DNA from: Paramacrobiotus metropolitanus
Taxonomy: Eukaryota; Tardigrada; Eutardigrada; Parachela; Macrobiotidae
DNA length: 64,000 nucleotides
Direction of reading: 5' to 3'
Assembly (NCBI RefSeq): GCF_019649055.1
Contig: NW_026570236.1
Location: forward strand, 620,001-684,000
The position numbers and the translations under genes were made by a program. Each line of letters begins with the position of its first letter. Within the stretch, counting starts at the first letter, position 1. The notes beneath the pieces were generated by a model. That model saw only the letters and a program-made list of their open reading frames with translations, was not told where the DNA came from and ran no database searches. This document shows, one piece after another, positions 422-34,567 of the stretch.

Positions 422-8402
<7,981 letters not shown>

Positions 8403-26700: not shown

Positions 26701-27290
26701 TCTTAGATTTTTGTCTGTTTGGTTTCTACCAGACCTGGGCAGTTAATTTTAACTATTTAACTTAACGCGAGTTATTTTCGAGTTATTGAGTTATAACTTA
26801 ACTCTTTAGCGTAACTCGCTCAGAAGAAAACTTAACTCTAACTCAACTCTCATAAAAATACTATATATTGTCTATGGTAGCGTAACTCGCTGTGTAACTC
26901 GAAACTCGGTTTTCCTGCATAAATACCTTAACTCTTAGCGTAACTCGCACGCTCCTTGTAACTCTTAACTCTAACTGTGGGCCAGTTTTCTATAACTGCC
27001 CAGGTCTGGTTTCTACATGCAATTATTATGGGCTTACCGGGATAGACGATTTTTGAAAGCTCTGATTATTGTGGTTTCTGAATTTCCCTATAGTATAAAG
27101 TAATCCACAAAATTTGCAGGATAAAGAATTGAAACCGCATCTGATGGCACTATTGCCGAATCTCCAATGGCCTGCTCAGACTTTTTCGCCGGCAGTGCCT
27201 GGGAAGAAACGCCCAAGAGGAGTTGCATTCTCGCCCCCTCCGCCGCCTACGGATAATAAAAAGAAGCGGACCGGGAGGCAGCTGAAGTGA
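23742..27290 (+). CDS. CHEK2: checkpoint kinase 2 (CHK2), with an apparent one-base frameshift
   Basis: Twelve exons: 23742-23910, 23979-24127, 24207-24282, 24625-24690, 24766-24995, 25083-25189, 25396-25424, 25493-25664, 25796-25962, 26173-26288, 26594-26679 and 27120-27290, about 512 aa. CHK2 is the DNA-damage kinase activated by ATM. Seen: an acidic N-terminus with SQ and TQ sites; an FHA domain with TFGRD (residues 64-68) and NGTFVDG; a glycine loop [14 protein letters not shown]-type Lys206; HRDLKPEN (Asp315); DFG (336-338); AYLAPEI; and a basic C-terminal nuclear signal ([18 protein letters not shown]). Exon 6 has one base too few: after the codons for ..KIDH at 25122-25127, the frame shifts by one before [10 protein letters not shown]. 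All other exon phases are consistent only if one base is missing near 25128. As written, translation would stop a few codons later. Either an assembly error or a null allele. Confidence 0.93.
26722..27016. mobile_element. hAT-type MITE (279 bp, 26730-27008) with 8-bp target duplications in a CHK2 intron
   Basis: The terminal inverted repeats are perfect over at least 16 bp (CAGACCTGGGCAGTTA at 26730 and its complement ending at 27008). The flanking GTTTCTAC occurs at 26722-26729 and again at 27009-27016. An 8-bp duplication with CAG-starting ends is the hAT signature. The interior is made of degenerate short repeats of TAACTC / GAGTTA type and has no reading frame. It lies in the last CHK2 intron (26680-27119). 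It is non-autonomous. Confidence 0.9.
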
Positions 27291-27977: not shown

Positions 27978-28515
27978 GCGCTCACATTCATGACCGCTTG
28001 TCAACTCTTTAAAATTATTCTGCGCTGCTAATAAACATTCGTAGTGATCCAGGCTGCATTAAACTGTATGTAATTACGCTGTACTTACTGTAGTTCGTCA
28101 ATAAGTTTTAAGATAATGAGGTTTAATTAATTAACCTAATAACTAGTAACTGAGCGAAAATATGAACTACCTACAGTAGAGTCATTGACGCCTAATTAGC
28201 ACATTTACAGCTAATTAATTAGCGAATCTGCCCCTAATTAGTAATTTCGCACCTCGTTTTTTTTAGCACCTAATTAGCAAATTTATTACACATGAAGAAA
28301 AAAATTAATTACATGTTATTAAGCTATGTGAGATTATTTTTCTTAACAAGGTTGCGCTTGTTGTGTTGCGTTGTCCATGGTAGTGAATGGCACTGAATGC
28401 AGATTTATTGCAGAATTCACGGTGCTGTCAGATTTGGTGTTTATTTCTACGAGTGTATCCGTTATCAGTGGTGGGAACATGTTTCACTTTTTTTCTCTTA
28501 GTCATAGCGGAAAAA

Positions 28516-28654
28516 ATGAGTAACCGATACGTGCGCAGCAGTCGTGCCGCAGATACAAGCAGGCTGCTGATATTTGACAGTCCTAATAGAAGTATTCACG
28601 AATCTGCCGCGGCATTTATTGATCAATCGACTGATTGGCGGCAGTGGTGTGCGG
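28516..28654 (+). other. possible upstream coding exon of the zinc-finger/BEN gene
   Basis: An ATG at 28516 opens a 46-codon segment with Ser/Arg-rich content, ending at a GTGAGG donor (28655) in phase 1. The next gene's first recognised exon has a CAG acceptor ending at 29285 that is also phase 1, so joining the two keeps the frame and places the ATG at 29288 internally. Phase agreement has a one-in-three chance of arising by accident, and no homology supports this exon. Without it, translation simply starts at 29288. Confidence 0.3.
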
Positions 28655-29287
28655 GTGAGGCGGAAAATGTGTCGGAGGCGGAATATCACCGCTTACGCGT
28701 GATGATTGGTTGAAAAGCTGCGCCACGCCCACGGAAATGCACGCGACACACCAGCCGGCCACCACTGGCGTCGAGCATTTCGGAAAACATCGCAGTGAAA
28801 AGCGATTTGACTTCATTCGTATCAGCATTCAGCAGACAGACCAGGCACAGTGATAGTTGTCTGCAGCGAGCCATGCAGCGTGTTTTCAAAGCCTAGCCGA
28901 GGCATATGATACTTGCATCTGCAAACGGAGTACCTTAGCTTGTACGTACAGAATAGGTACGAACTCGTATCGTACAATTGGGTGAAATCTTTTTCTGAAT
29001 GTTCTCTGATAAGTACGTACAACAGTCCAGTTTTTCTTTCTTAATAAAAGGACGAGCAAATTAGCGGAGCGATTTGAACCAGGTTTGTAAGTGTATGTCG
29101 TCCGCAGCGGGATACAGGAATAATCCTGTCCCATGGACAGTATTCGACTCCCGATTATGCCACGTCAGAGGCCAGCAGCAGCATCCCGTCTGCATCCGCA
29201 GCATCTCCAGTGTGTGTGTTTTGCAGGTGACTAATCTTCCTCCCGTGGTCTGGTCTGCATCGATCCCTGTATAGATATACAGCAGGC

Positions 29288-32200
29288 ATGCATAACGGCA
29301 CCGTCAGCCTGTCCAGTAACCCCCCGACCATGGTGCTGCCGCCCAGTCTGCTGGGGCAGCAACCCCCGCAGGACACCAGCAGCGCCGGGGGCACAGGCAG
29401 CAGTAGTCAGAGTGACAGTGCCGTGGCGGATGTCCACTGTGTGGTGTGCCAGCAGTCCCTGTTCGTCAAGGATATGACGCCGCCGCGCCAACAGAAACCC
29501 TGGAAGTGCAATGGCTGTCAGCAGTGGTTCACGGTGAAGTCCAGTGCCAAACGCCATGTGGTCAATGTCCACAAGGACCGGGTGTGCCGGGATTGTGGGG
29601 AGCGGGGGATGGGCGGGGAGGGCGTGGCCAGTGGGGGCAAGGGGGCCGGGACGACCGGGGGGATGAATGATATGATGCACATGCATCAACAAGGTACGGA
29701 CATGAGGGAATTCCCCAGGGAATTATGAAGATTAATGGCGTCAGCTGTTCCATTGTTTTTGTACTGGGATGTTCAGTGGTCACTTTTTCATTTGATTTCA
29801 ACGCCACCCTTTAAAATGTTTGCAGCTTATTTTTCTCAGACTTAAATTAGTTTCAATTTAACGTGAAAACCGGATCCTGATTTAGTCTTTAACATAAACC
29901 TTTAACAGTTAAAGCCATTTAACGCCCAAGCGTTAAATGACGTTAACGCAGAGCGAGCTCACGTGTCTTGGCAACCATGGTTGCATCCTTCAGAATGCTT
30001 CCAGGGCCACTTTGCCACGTACACGCAGTTTCACGGCCAGAAAAATTCGCAAATTTTAAATTCGCAAACCTTTAAAGGACCTTATTTATCATGCCGCGTA
30101 AAAAGGCGCAACGTCTTAGAAGTTCAGTGTCGGAACCAGAAGTAGAAATGGCATCTCCAGCACGTAAATCTAATAGAGGGAAACGCCCAACCCAGCTTGA
30201 TTCACTGACCGAATCCATCTCGAATCTACAAAGCCAGATGACCGCATTAATGGACAAGCAACGGGTGGTGGCCCCCATGCCCCATGTTCAACAGTTTTTT
30301 CCTCCTTTAGTTGATCTGGTGGGCACTAATACCCAAGTGAACTCACCCGCCCGTCCACCAGCATACATGGCTCTACCTGCAATGGAGAATTCGATCCTGA
30401 AGACGCTCTCAGATCGGCGAGCATTCGTTCATCTTAACAAACTGCAGCCAAACAATCGCGATTTTGACACATCTAATGAACGGACGGTATTTGTGTCTGA
30501 CGCTGAGGGAAAGTTGGTTCCCTCTGTTGCTCCACCCGCTCGTCGAAAAATTGAAAGTTTCCTGTCGTGGTTGGAGGCGTTTCTGCTCTTCGCTCGTTTC
30601 AGAACGTTTGTTTTTTCGCATATATTGAGATAATCCGTGGTTTGTCCGTATCGCGCCCATTGTTTATCTGGCTTGAATACGATCGCCGTTTCCGGGAGAA
30701 AATGACCTTCCCAGATGTAGCTGAGTTGGCCTGGTTTTCTGAAGATTCTGCAATTATGGCTGATGTGGTGCGCTCTGTACCTTTAAGCGATAACTCTAGC
30801 CAGTTGTTAGCCACCGCTGTTCATGCATCCACAACTCCTGCAACTTCCGGAATTCCCCCCTTCGGTTGCTTTATATGCAAGGATCCTTTTCACTACGCCA
30901 ACCTTTGCCCACAGCGCGCCGGGGTGAGCCCTACTGGTTCCGGTAGCCCTACCATTCCCAGCCTGAGCACTTCTTCTACACAAAGCCTCGCAACTCCGCA
31001 GCAAGTTTCGCGCAGTCCTCGCCCTGTTATCTGTCGAGACTATAATAATGGCCGTTGTGCAACGCCCTGCCCGCACCACCGGATACACGTCTGCGAGCAG
31101 TGTTACGATACAACACACATTCGTGGTTTTCATCAAATGAATTCTGTCTAGATTCTTGTTCGTTGCGCTTTCTTTATCGAGTTTGCAATTATTTCTCAAA
31201 TTATTTTGCTAAATTTAATTATTAACCCAATTTTTTCTTTGCAGTCCTCCTGTGTGCCTCCGCGCGGTTGGGGGTTGCCTGTCGGTTTGAGGGTGTCCGG
31301 CGCGGCTTGTATCATAACCTGGGTGACCGACGGCACCCTTCAGCGTGTCGTCTGGACATCGCTCAGGCTGATCACTTGCCCCGGCATCCTCAGGCGGCAA
31401 CTTTCGGTCGTGAGCGAGCTCATAAGCGTTAAAGCCATTTAACGCCCAAGCGTTAAATGACGTTAACGCAGAGCGAGCTCACGTGTCTTGGCAACCATGG
31501 TTGCATCCTTCAGAATGCTTCCAGGGCCACTTTGCCACGTACACGCAGTTTCACGGCCAGAAAAATTCGCAACCCTCCCGCCCGCCCGTTTATGCGCATT
31601 GTATTGTATCTCAACGTTGTTCGGTGTTTTATCTCGTGTTTTTCTTTCTCATACTGCTTGTACCAATTCGATTTCAATAAAGGGGTGTCCGGCGCGGCTT
31701 GTATCATAACCTGGGTGACCGACGGCACCCTTCAGCGTGTCGTCTGGACATCGCTCAGGCTGATCACTTGCCCCGGCATCCTCAGGCGGCAACTTTCGGT
31801 CGTGAGCGAGCTCATAAGCGTTAACTGCATTATTAGAAAATCCAGTTATAAATCGCGGCACATGCATTACTGCACCGTCTGCACGTAAGCTGTAAAATTG
31901 AAAAAAATGAAAAACTATTACGTTTATTGAAATTACTACAATAAATAATAAAATTAATACGATGAATTACCGCGCATTACAACACGTAAGCTGTAAACTG
32001 GGAGTAATGAAAAATTACTACAGTATTATTAAGATTATTATGAGTACGTAATATTAAAGTTATGATAATTTAATTGACAATAATCATTCGCACGTTGGAT
32101 TAATACGAAAGTTGCAACTATGTGTTATAGAAATTGGTAACCGCTTGCAGGAATTTGCACGGAATATGTTTTGCAAATAATGGGTGTTATTCTGATTTCT

Positions 32201-34567
32201 TCCAGTCGCCTCGCACAATCTTGATGGAAATTTTCGGTTTGCAGTTGTGCCAGAACCCAGTCAGCCGACCTTCATGTCCAATCGTTCGGCGTCTATGATC
32301 GCCGACCCCACCGAACACCAGCAGAAAGTGTACATCCAGGCCAGCCAGCCGACGCACATCCAGATCCAACCGACCGCTCAACACCCGGCCGGGACCACCC
32401 TGACCATCCACGACACGCACGACCTGCAGGCCGATCTGGCCCTGCTCTCCCTGATGCTGGCCAACAATCTCGACCTGAAGACTATGGATGCCATCATCAT
32501 GTTGCTCAACAGCGGGCGGGATTTCTCCAAAATCAAAAACGCCGCCCACTGGCTGGAGCGGTTGGGACGCGGGGCGGCGGTCAATGTGGCCACGCATTGT
32601 AATGTGTGTAAACGGCCGGCCACACAAGCCTGCCTCAACTCCGGGCATCAGACGCACAGTGCGCCTGTTCTGGCCGCACATCCGGTTGTAAAAAGTAAGA
32701 ATTTTTTTCATGGTTGTGTTTCAGTAATAAATAATATTATAAAATGAAATCATAAAGTTTTTATGAGATAATGAATAAGTAAATAAATTATAACAAAGAT
32801 AATATTAAATAAATAAGTAAGATATGCAATAATAAAAAATTAATAATAAAGAGAACATTAAATAAATGAATAAAAATATATAATAATAATTAAATAATGG
32901 CGATGATAATATATATTATTAATAAAATAATACTAATTTTAATCGTAATTGAACTGATTATTTGGCTCTTTGCAGCAGTGCCGCAGATGCAGAATTCCGT
33001 GGCATCGGTGGCGTCTGTGCCTTCTCTGAGTCCGTTCCCAGGAGGAACGGTGATCGGGATCTTCGATGCCAGTGGACAGCTTCTGCCCACTAATTCAATT
33101 CCTATGGCGGCGACTTCAGTGGTGACCGGTTCGGTAAGTGTTGGTTATTCATTGTTGTCTGTTGAAGTTGGAAGAACAAGTGTACTTGTCGGTGTTTGCA
33201 TTATTGGACGATTGCTTCACTGGTATTCACTTGTATCTCATTGATATTGCAGCAAGCCCCCCAGCCAGTCGCCCAAGCACAGGCCACGCCGAAGAAAGCC
33301 AAATCCCGAAAGAAGCGCCCTGCTGCAGCCAACGCCCCGAATGGTCCGCCACGGGAAATACCAGCGACCCCGACAACGCCCCACACCGGAAACAAGGTGA
33401 GCAGTTCGAGTGTATTTCGCTCGTTTGGTTTACGTTCTGATTTACGCGCATTTGTACGGTGTTAGGTGGGATCTCTGGCGACGTCCTGGAAGGCCATTGC
33501 GCGGAACAATCTCTACAGTCTTCACACTCCTCAAGAGCTTCTTGGACTGTGTGTGGTGGGACGTCGGGTGGATAAGACCGTGGATACTGGACTGCAGCCG
33601 ATGGACACGGAAAAGCGCCGCGTCATTGCAGGTACCGTATGCGTACTAAAGAGTGAATAAATTTTCCTTGAGTTTGCTTGCTCCCCAAATTTTTGGAAAA
33701 ATTGGTTCATACAGTTCAGTCATTTCAAAAGTTTTCGTTAATAATTTGTCTAGCTATGGTGATCTGTGGGGATCGTCGGGCGCGGATAAGCCACTGTACT
33801 ACGAAGAACGAAGACGTACTTCAGTAGGGTGTTACGTGTTCAACCTTGTCAGTCACGACGCGATTTCTTTTACAAACAGTTTTTTTGTTTTTCAGTATTT
33901 TCCACGTTATTAAAGTTTTAATAAAGTAGTAGATCCTAGGTGGCTTCGAAAGTCTTAGCATATTGCTAAGCATAAAGTTAATACTTTAAATAAAGTGCGG
34001 TACATCAACGTATCTGTGAATGTGGTGCTTATGTATGTACTTACTTAATAGATGTAGATACTAAGATATGTGAAGTAAAGAGTTTTTATTTGAAGAAATG
34101 TTTAATAATGAGTTATAATTTGATTGTAAATGAGTTTTGACATTTGTACTTTAGATGATGAGTATTTTTAATTGTTGTTAATAAAATTAATTTGTACTGC
34201 AGCCGGTGGATGCACGAGGATTGAGGTCGAATTTGAGAGAATTACAAACAAATATTCTTTGATCTTTGCAGAAGCGGTAGCCAATCACTGCAACAACGTG
34301 GGCATCCCCATTCCCAGTGAGACGCAGATCAACCATTTCATGTCGCAGATCCTGTGCGATCTCCGCCGCAAAGAGTCATTACAGGCCACCGGTCAGACGC
34401 CCACCCGCAAGAAGATAAAGAAGGAGGAAGCCGCCGCCGCCGCGGCGACGACCCCCTCATCCACGCCGACAACGAGCAGCACCACACCCGCGGGCATCAC
34501 CATGGTGGAGCCGCAGCCCCCGCCGTCGCTCTCCATCAAGCACGAAAGCATGAGCCTGCTGCCGTGA
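29288..34567 (+). CDS. nuclear protein with a zinc finger and probable BEN-like domain
   Basis: Six exons: 29288-29693, 32245-32694, 32976-33133, 33253-33396, 33466-33631 and 34272-34567, giving 539 aa with consistent phases. The first exon holds a Ser/Gln-rich lead, then Cys/His pairs (CVVC, then CNGC..., H...H, then CRDC), suggesting one or two zinc-binding modules of C2H2-like form. Exon 2 has a helical Leu-rich segment and another CNVC motif. The fourth exon is Lys/Pro-rich and basic (KAKSRKKRP, a nuclear signal). Exon 5 into 6 (LHTPQELLGLCVVGRR... to ..INHFMSQILCDLRRK) fits the BEN pattern of DNA-binding or corepressor proteins by helix spacing; this is inference. The tail is poly-Ala, Thr and Ser. 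The 2.5-kb intron 1 contains a retroelement. I do not recognise an orthologue; a transcriptional regulator is likely. Confidence 0.82.
29908..30052 (+). repeat. split repeat A1
   Basis: This is a 145-bp direct repeat, with an apparently identical copy at 31428-31572. It begins GTTAAAGCCATTTAACGCCC and ends AAAAATTCGCAA. Confidence 0.85.
30091..31151 (+). pseudogene. gag-like ORF of the DIRS-like element, broken by a frameshift
   Basis: An open frame starts at ATG 30091 (basic N-terminus, then a heptad-like segment SISNLQSQMTALMDKQ) and reads to 30633. Homologous-looking sequence continues in another frame from about 30600 to the stop at 31151. The join falls near the tryptophan-rich segment around 30570-30620, implying an indel or programmed shift there. 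The second half has ICKDPFHYANLC and a terminal CRDYNNGRC..CPHHRIHVCEQC Cys/His array, like the C-terminus of DIRS-type gag proteins. No protease or polymerase follows. I infer a capsid/nucleocapsid-type role from family resemblance. Confidence 0.65.
31291..31432 (+). repeat. split repeat B1
   Basis: This is a 142-bp direct repeat starting GGGTGTCCGGCGCGGC, duplicated at 31683-31824. Its last five bases (GTTAA) are also the first five of repeat A2. Confidence 0.85.
31428..31572 (+). repeat. split repeat A2
   Basis: This is the second copy of the 145-bp repeat A1 (offset 1520 bp). It directly follows B1, giving the B-A junction expected of split-direct-repeat elements. Confidence 0.85.
31676..31681 (+). 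promoter_or_regulatory. AATAAA inside the element, just before repeat B2
   Basis: A polyadenylation-type hexamer lies at the end of the 110-bp spacer between A2 and B2, downstream of a T-rich stretch. It may serve the element's own transcript. Confidence 0.35.
31683..31824 (+). repeat. split repeat B2
   Basis: This is the second copy of the 142-bp repeat B1 (offset 392 bp) and forms the right boundary of the element. GTTAA at 31820-31824 matches the GTTAA at the left boundary (29908-29912). Confidence 0.85.

Follow-up and report, generated by a model that had tools for sequence, protein, structure and literature searches.

Among retroelements with a tyrosine recombinase (YR), Ngaro elements are defined as having split direct repeats, with the internal ones lying 3′ of the YR, and no methyltransferase, and PAT elements encode a methyltransferase, according to the available part of one account (PMC4157794). 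In trypanosomatids, SIRE corresponds to the A2–B2 stretch of VIPER, and the portion of the source at hand leaves its origin and mobility open (PMC6681497). Here we describe an element from a 64,000-nt stretch of DNA (the window; coordinates without a locus or contig prefix are positions in the whole window) together with its relatives in the genome (169.8 Mb in 533 contigs). The element likely derives from a Ngaro-like retrotransposon, one with split direct repeats and a tyrosine recombinase, of which it would be a gag-only, non-autonomous form.

A direct-repeat search followed by alignment resolved the window element into the order A–body–B–A–spacer–B, with repeat pairs at 29903/31423 and 31291/31683 (Table 1). 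This is the arrangement that had been claimed in a sequence-only reading, and both pairs are indeed identical: A1 and A2 match over 145 nt from 29908/31428, with the first difference at 30053, and B1 and B2 over 142/142 nt, far beyond chance. The sequence 5′ of A is variable and NTTAN-like. Across 34 left flanks, which include the internal, mutated A2 of L001 and L015 (register off by one base), positions −4 to −1 are T in 26, T in 29, A in 31 and A in 29. B terminates in GCGTTAA in nearly all copies seen; L003 has GCGTTGA. Because the bases before A vary and B ends in GCGTTAA, the GTTAA at the left boundary is target DNA and the motif is owned by B. The identical A part inside the element is accordingly 140 nt, and the element proper spans 29913–31824 (1,912 bp). 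The right end of the extent first proposed, 29908–31824, was therefore kept and its left end moved to 29913; GTTAA, initially read as common to B1 and A2, was assigned to the end of B and removed from A. An inverted-repeat search of 28000–34000 yielded one weak 27-nt pair, located outside the A/B design. Separately, a GAGCGAGTTACGC...GAGTTAA motif occurs at window 26798–26928 (−) and at L050:97 (−); it resembles a B end by loose pattern only, and these stretches appear to be a different repeat or chance.

Table 1. Features of the window element and its left boundary
Feature	Position	Strand	Basis
Target-site GTTAA left of element	29908–29912	.	34 left flanks; empty sites of related solo
A1 repeat, three of four palindromic arms (TTTAACGC, GCGTTAAA, GTTAACGC)	29913–30052	+	Repeat search, alignment
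gag, first frame piece	30091–30633	+	ORF; similar to L021 gag aa 37–177
gag, second frame piece	30567–31151	+	ORF; similar to L021 gag aa 186–359
Post-gag non-coding stretch	31152–31290	+	Position of RT and YR in full-length relatives
B1 repeat with terminal GCGTTAA and without a poly(A) hexamer 5′ of it	31291–31432	+	
A2 repeat	31433–31572	+	B1A2 joint 31432/31433 with full four-arm nested palindrome
Spacer, AATAAA at its end directly 5′ of B2	31573–31682	+	
B2 repeat, right end of element	31683–31824	+	

The genome contains a second near-full copy at a different site (C166, 96% identity), a partial copy at C79, solo A–spacer–B units at C22 and C26 that are 99% identical to the window A2–spacer–B2, an A–B fusion at C18, and divergent relatives besides. 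The identical A and B pairs, together with these two solos, bear out the proposed recent movement. Four full-length relatives (L010, L013, L018 and L021) carry their ORFs between repeats of the same design: gag of 363–381 aa, an overlapping reverse transcriptase (RT) frame that matches RVT_1 at E 7e-14 to 2.8e-11, and a YR frame 325–340 aa long. Pfam scores of the relatives' YRs, 14 to 25 bits, lie below the curated cut-off of 27.1, and the residues R, K, HxxR, W and Y, which we take to be the YR catalytic set, are present in all four YRs inspected (L013, L018, L021 and L024). The search for full-length relatives that had been suggested thus returned both RT and YR; for RNase H behind the RT, a single weak match in L013 (E 0.068) stayed below threshold. 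The window body shows no RT or YR similarity at E 1e-3, in keeping with the split-direct-repeat YR retroelement without polymerase that had been postulated. A genome search with one Ngaro-like YR gave at least 125 matches, many of them in frames that stay open for more than 300 aa, and the genome is rich in YR elements. In the left flank of L021, a 34-nt sequence was observed that is repeated directly right of the element; tyrosine-recombinase insertion would not explain it, and it is perhaps a local tandem repeat. At L009, RT and YR similarity lies on both sides of an F3 element (L009:235–1238 and 5218–5577), which seems to be nested in another, divergent YR retroelement.

Two Ngaro traits are evident here. 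The window element and its relatives have split direct repeats in the order A1–body–B1A2–B2, and the four full-length relatives show the order gag–RT–YR with the internal repeats 3′ of the YR. Pfam detected no methyltransferase in the relatives' ORFs, and the Pfam Dam model (PF05869) gave 0 matches genome-wide, in a search whose control was positive only in E. coli and which a divergent domain could escape. Because no methyltransferase was found, we consider the element Ngaro-like rather than PAT-like, retaining one half of the PAT/Ngaro assignment made earlier and abandoning the other. Pat1 too has split direct repeats and a zinc-knuckle-like gag in the available part of its description (PMC4157794), but with the methyltransferase missing by these searches, membership in the PAT-like elements of the DIRS group proper is very improbable. 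A DIRS1-like element with inverted terminal repeats and an internal complementary region was also considered and rejected, the terminal repeats being direct and split.

Insertion sites were examined through the joined flanks of several copies. The flanks of solo L005 lie within a repeat, and when joined they match more than 15 places nearly full-length and uninterrupted; all six empty sites fetched run through the junction without a gap (92.5–96.7% over 120 nt). The L005 insertion measures 392 bp, with neither duplication nor loss of target. For the full-length L026, another repeat supplied the comparison: two of its copies align with the joined flanks over the junction, L026 having one additional A. 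The joined flanks of the window copy are single copy in the genome and gave no empty site, so that the empty sites proposed as a check were obtained, cleanly, for the solo L005 and not for the window copy. These results bear on a further alternative. TR-GAG elements are short non-autonomous LTR elements that have kept gag and depend on a partner, and the window element is likewise short, gag-only and repeat-flanked. Its repeats, however, are split in A–body–B–A–spacer–B order, the solo tested (L005) lacks a target duplication and the relatives carry a YR; we attach almost no weight to an LTR-type, TR-GAG-like origin.

The gag frame that had been noticed in the body is present, but in two pieces instead of as one intact frame. 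Together the pieces span aa 37 to 359 of the 365-aa gag of L021; a Pfam search with them found nothing above cut-off, and the translation of the second piece contains further Cys/His motifs besides a CCHC-type one (CFICKDPFHYANLC). Among intact gag frames the best match is C37:10469–10993, which shares 59% aa identity with this second piece. The window frame is broken because 22 nt near 30608, present in the C166 copy, are missing from it; gag is also broken in C166, at another place. Within the element, 17 substitutions and 26 gaps separate the two copies, 23 of the gaps being bases that C166 lacks. There are 15 one-base gaps, divided equally between runs of five, runs of two or three, and positions outside runs (five each), and assembly error is a possible, though not clearly the actual, source.

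Two further loci, C253 and C51, share 71–79% and 73% gag DNA identity with the window, respectively. No RT or YR was found in either locus as fetched, and A1 was seen for neither; gag runs straight to B, and their post-gag DNA is alignable with that of the window, with gaps. This comparison suggests one old deletion, after which the lineage may have persisted as gag-only. Alternatively, the window copy might be the dead remnant of an internal deletion that removed RT and YR in place, now decaying and with no mobilised lineage behind it. Such a remnant would fit the broken gag of both near-full copies, the low copy number and an omega of about 1 between the window 5′ gag piece and the L001 gag (108 codons). 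It is harder to reconcile with two near-full copies of the same structure at different sites, with solos that are 99% identical, with gag breaks that are not the same in both copies, or with the same passage from gag to B in C253 and C51, and we regard it as unlikely. Divergence between the window 3′ gag piece and C253 (dS about 0.64, dN 0.34) is a rough estimate, the C253 gag being broken, and against the full-length gags synonymous sites are saturated.

The B–A joint comprises four arms, GCGTTAA, 5 nt, TTTAACGC, 4 or 5 nt, GCGTTAAA, 4 nt and GTTAACGC, that form two nested palindromes. Three arms lie in A1 and one in B2, and all four are united in B1A2. Of the 10 subfamilies that were tabulated by hand, all 10 have an inner pair that forms a perfect dyad, and this pair occurs in three versions (TTTAACGC/GCGTTAAA, TTTAACGT/ACGTTAAA and TTTAATGC/GCATTAAA); since all three are perfect, the changes are compensating. 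The central gap is 4 nt in the window family F1, F2 and F3 and 5 nt in the RT- and YR-bearing families, a mismatch that speaks against simple sharing of the recombinase. A genome search with the 4/4 arm pattern, allowing up to 3 mismatches, gave 28 matches, and the reversed control 0. At the inspected loci among these matches (the C7 match left out), no RT/YR element with a 4-nt gap was encountered; they proved to be non-autonomous families F1–F3 or fragments.

We then classified the copies by cassette content. Of the 51 sequences collected, 28 are loci that retain both outer ends, 13 are truncated or cut copies, and the other 10 are empty sites, host genes or extra flanks. By hand, the 28 loci were divided into 13 composites (A–body–B–A–spacer–B; in three of them, L009, L027 and L031, an end is partial), one triple (L013), eight A–body–B copies (including L017, with a much shortened body), five A–spacer–B copies (including L049, whose A was seen by its arms only) and one A–B (L012). 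Copies showing the A...B unit alone had been named in advance as refuting the DIRS-order reading. Such units do occur (the five A–spacer–B and eight A–body–B copies), but they stand beside composites with RT and YR and therefore extend that reading instead of overturning it.

The two kinds of unit differ in their poly(A) signal: a hexamer precedes B in 17/19 spacer units versus 0/22 body units. In composites it lies just 5′ of B2 in 13 of the 14 tested (exception L009; L019, with A1 missing, is included and L031 left out) and 5′ of B1 in none of the 14; among single units, it is found 5′ of B in four of the five solos (exception L049) and in none of the eight A–body–B copies, and the A–B fusion has none. 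Because the hexamer is placed on spacer units and not on body units, the spacer cassette seems to be the source of the RNA 3′ end. The triple, L013:1023–2031 (−), consists of A–body–B, A–spacer–B and A–spacer′–B with exact joints. Compared with L014, its body unit is 99.8% identical and its middle unit has one difference. The last spacer is distinguished from the middle one by indels of 12, 10 and 1 nt and 6 substitutions, whereas the two units are identical in B and in the initial part of A. No exact relative of this third-unit spacer was found in the genome; the matches of nearly full length comprise three u2-type units at 93%, one of which is truncated, and a C42 solo at 89%.

These forms raise a tentative alternative, in which A–body–B and A–spacer–B each form a recombinase cassette of their own. 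With its two B–A junctions, a composite circle might conceivably be split by the recombinase into two single-junction circles, and each of these could, on the same doubtful footing, insert alone or beside a resident unit. Single-cassette copies of both kinds (eight and five) in several families, the clean empty sites of solo L005, the exact joints and two differing spacers of the triple, and the confinement of the poly(A) signal to the spacer cassette all agree with this arrangement. Against it, recombination after insertion between A1 and A2 or between B1 and B2 yields the same single forms, none of the 28 loci with both ends shows the permuted order A–spacer–B–A–body–B, and the paired repeats in composites are mostly 97–100% alike (the A pair of L001, 92%). 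This likeness shows that composites also spread as whole units. That the cassettes move independently is an inference, in our view less likely than not, and its generalisation to a gene cassette and a terminator cassette, each bounded by recombinase sites, movable alone as a circle and joined by site-specific tandem integration at B–A, is speculative.

A split-direct-repeat family with a deoxynucleoside kinase (dNK)-like frame in its body was identified at L030:1267–5203 (C26), L029 and L031, and also at C49 and C496. The frame at L030:1406–2017 matches Pfam dNK with E 1.9e-30, and no gag, RT or YR match was found in L029, L030, L031 or L044. Similarity of the L030 frame begins just after the P-loop (GNIGCGKS) of a single-frame dNK at C81 and spans the site of a ~360-nt interruption in the dNK-like gene of C23; it looks like a captured, processed host gene minus the P-loop. 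Among the kinase frames, dN < dS is significant in 1/10 pairs. A literature search for a retrotransposon-captured deoxynucleoside kinase found none, its match concerning host factors in retroviral infection. Additional dNK-like fragments at C130:91420–91691 and C7:2157577–2157831, each a few kb from a gag match (C130:94996 and C7:2162581), are possibly further captures. It is an uncertain, less favoured idea that one two-cassette system carries different loads in the gag-only element, in the kinase-bearing family and in the solos.

For the gag-only Ngaro-like derivative that we favour, we propose the following cycle. RNA would start in or near A1 and be polyadenylated just inside B2 via the AATAAA 5′ of B2, and would consequently be short of most of B2 and probably also of the A1 edge. 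The internal B1A2 joint, itself presumably a copy of the circle junction, would supply the missing halves. Acting in trans, the RT and recombinase of full-length relatives would copy the RNA and close circular DNA; the recombinase would bind the nested palindrome at the B–A junction and exchange strands with an NTTAN target without duplicating it. The element may still have made use of the gag protein, and it probably depends for its enzymes on longer relatives within this genome. Directly observed are the anatomy, the exact ends, the clean empty sites of the solo, the RT- and YR-bearing relatives with similar arms, and the poly(A) placement.

In the literature searched, mostly without subscription papers, no description of a gag-only Ngaro element was found. 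A single genome here holds full-length, gag-only, gene-carrying, single-cassette, solo and triple forms together, and the clean empty sites, the compensated palindromic junction and the restriction of poly(A) signals to one cassette make the replication model testable. Whether A–B sub-units of split-direct-repeat elements move as solos is the question left open for SIRE in the available text (PMC6681497). The closest likeness is to Ngaro-like elements, which in the portions of the sources at hand share the A1–ORFs–B1A2–B2 repeats, the overlapping gag–RT–YR frames, the internal repeats after the YR and the lack of a detectable methyltransferase (PMC4157794, PMC8547959, PMC9210276). In contrast to them, the window element has gag only, and among its relatives there are also single cassettes, a triple and elements in which a kinase-gene fragment takes the place of the ORFs. 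VIPER/SIRE likewise has split direct repeats, and SIRE resembles the A–spacer–B solos; the window element belongs to another lineage, and its gag-only form and the A–body–B single form are absent from the accessible descriptions (PMC6681497). PAT-like elements share the split direct repeats, and Pat1 a gag with a zinc finger, as far as the consulted text goes (PMC4157794), whereas the methyltransferase reported there has no counterpart found here. TR-GAG elements are similar in being short and keeping gag, but end in LTRs, where the present element has split repeats and YR-bearing relatives; the gag-only lineage would be the DIRS-order counterpart of such gag-only LTR elements.
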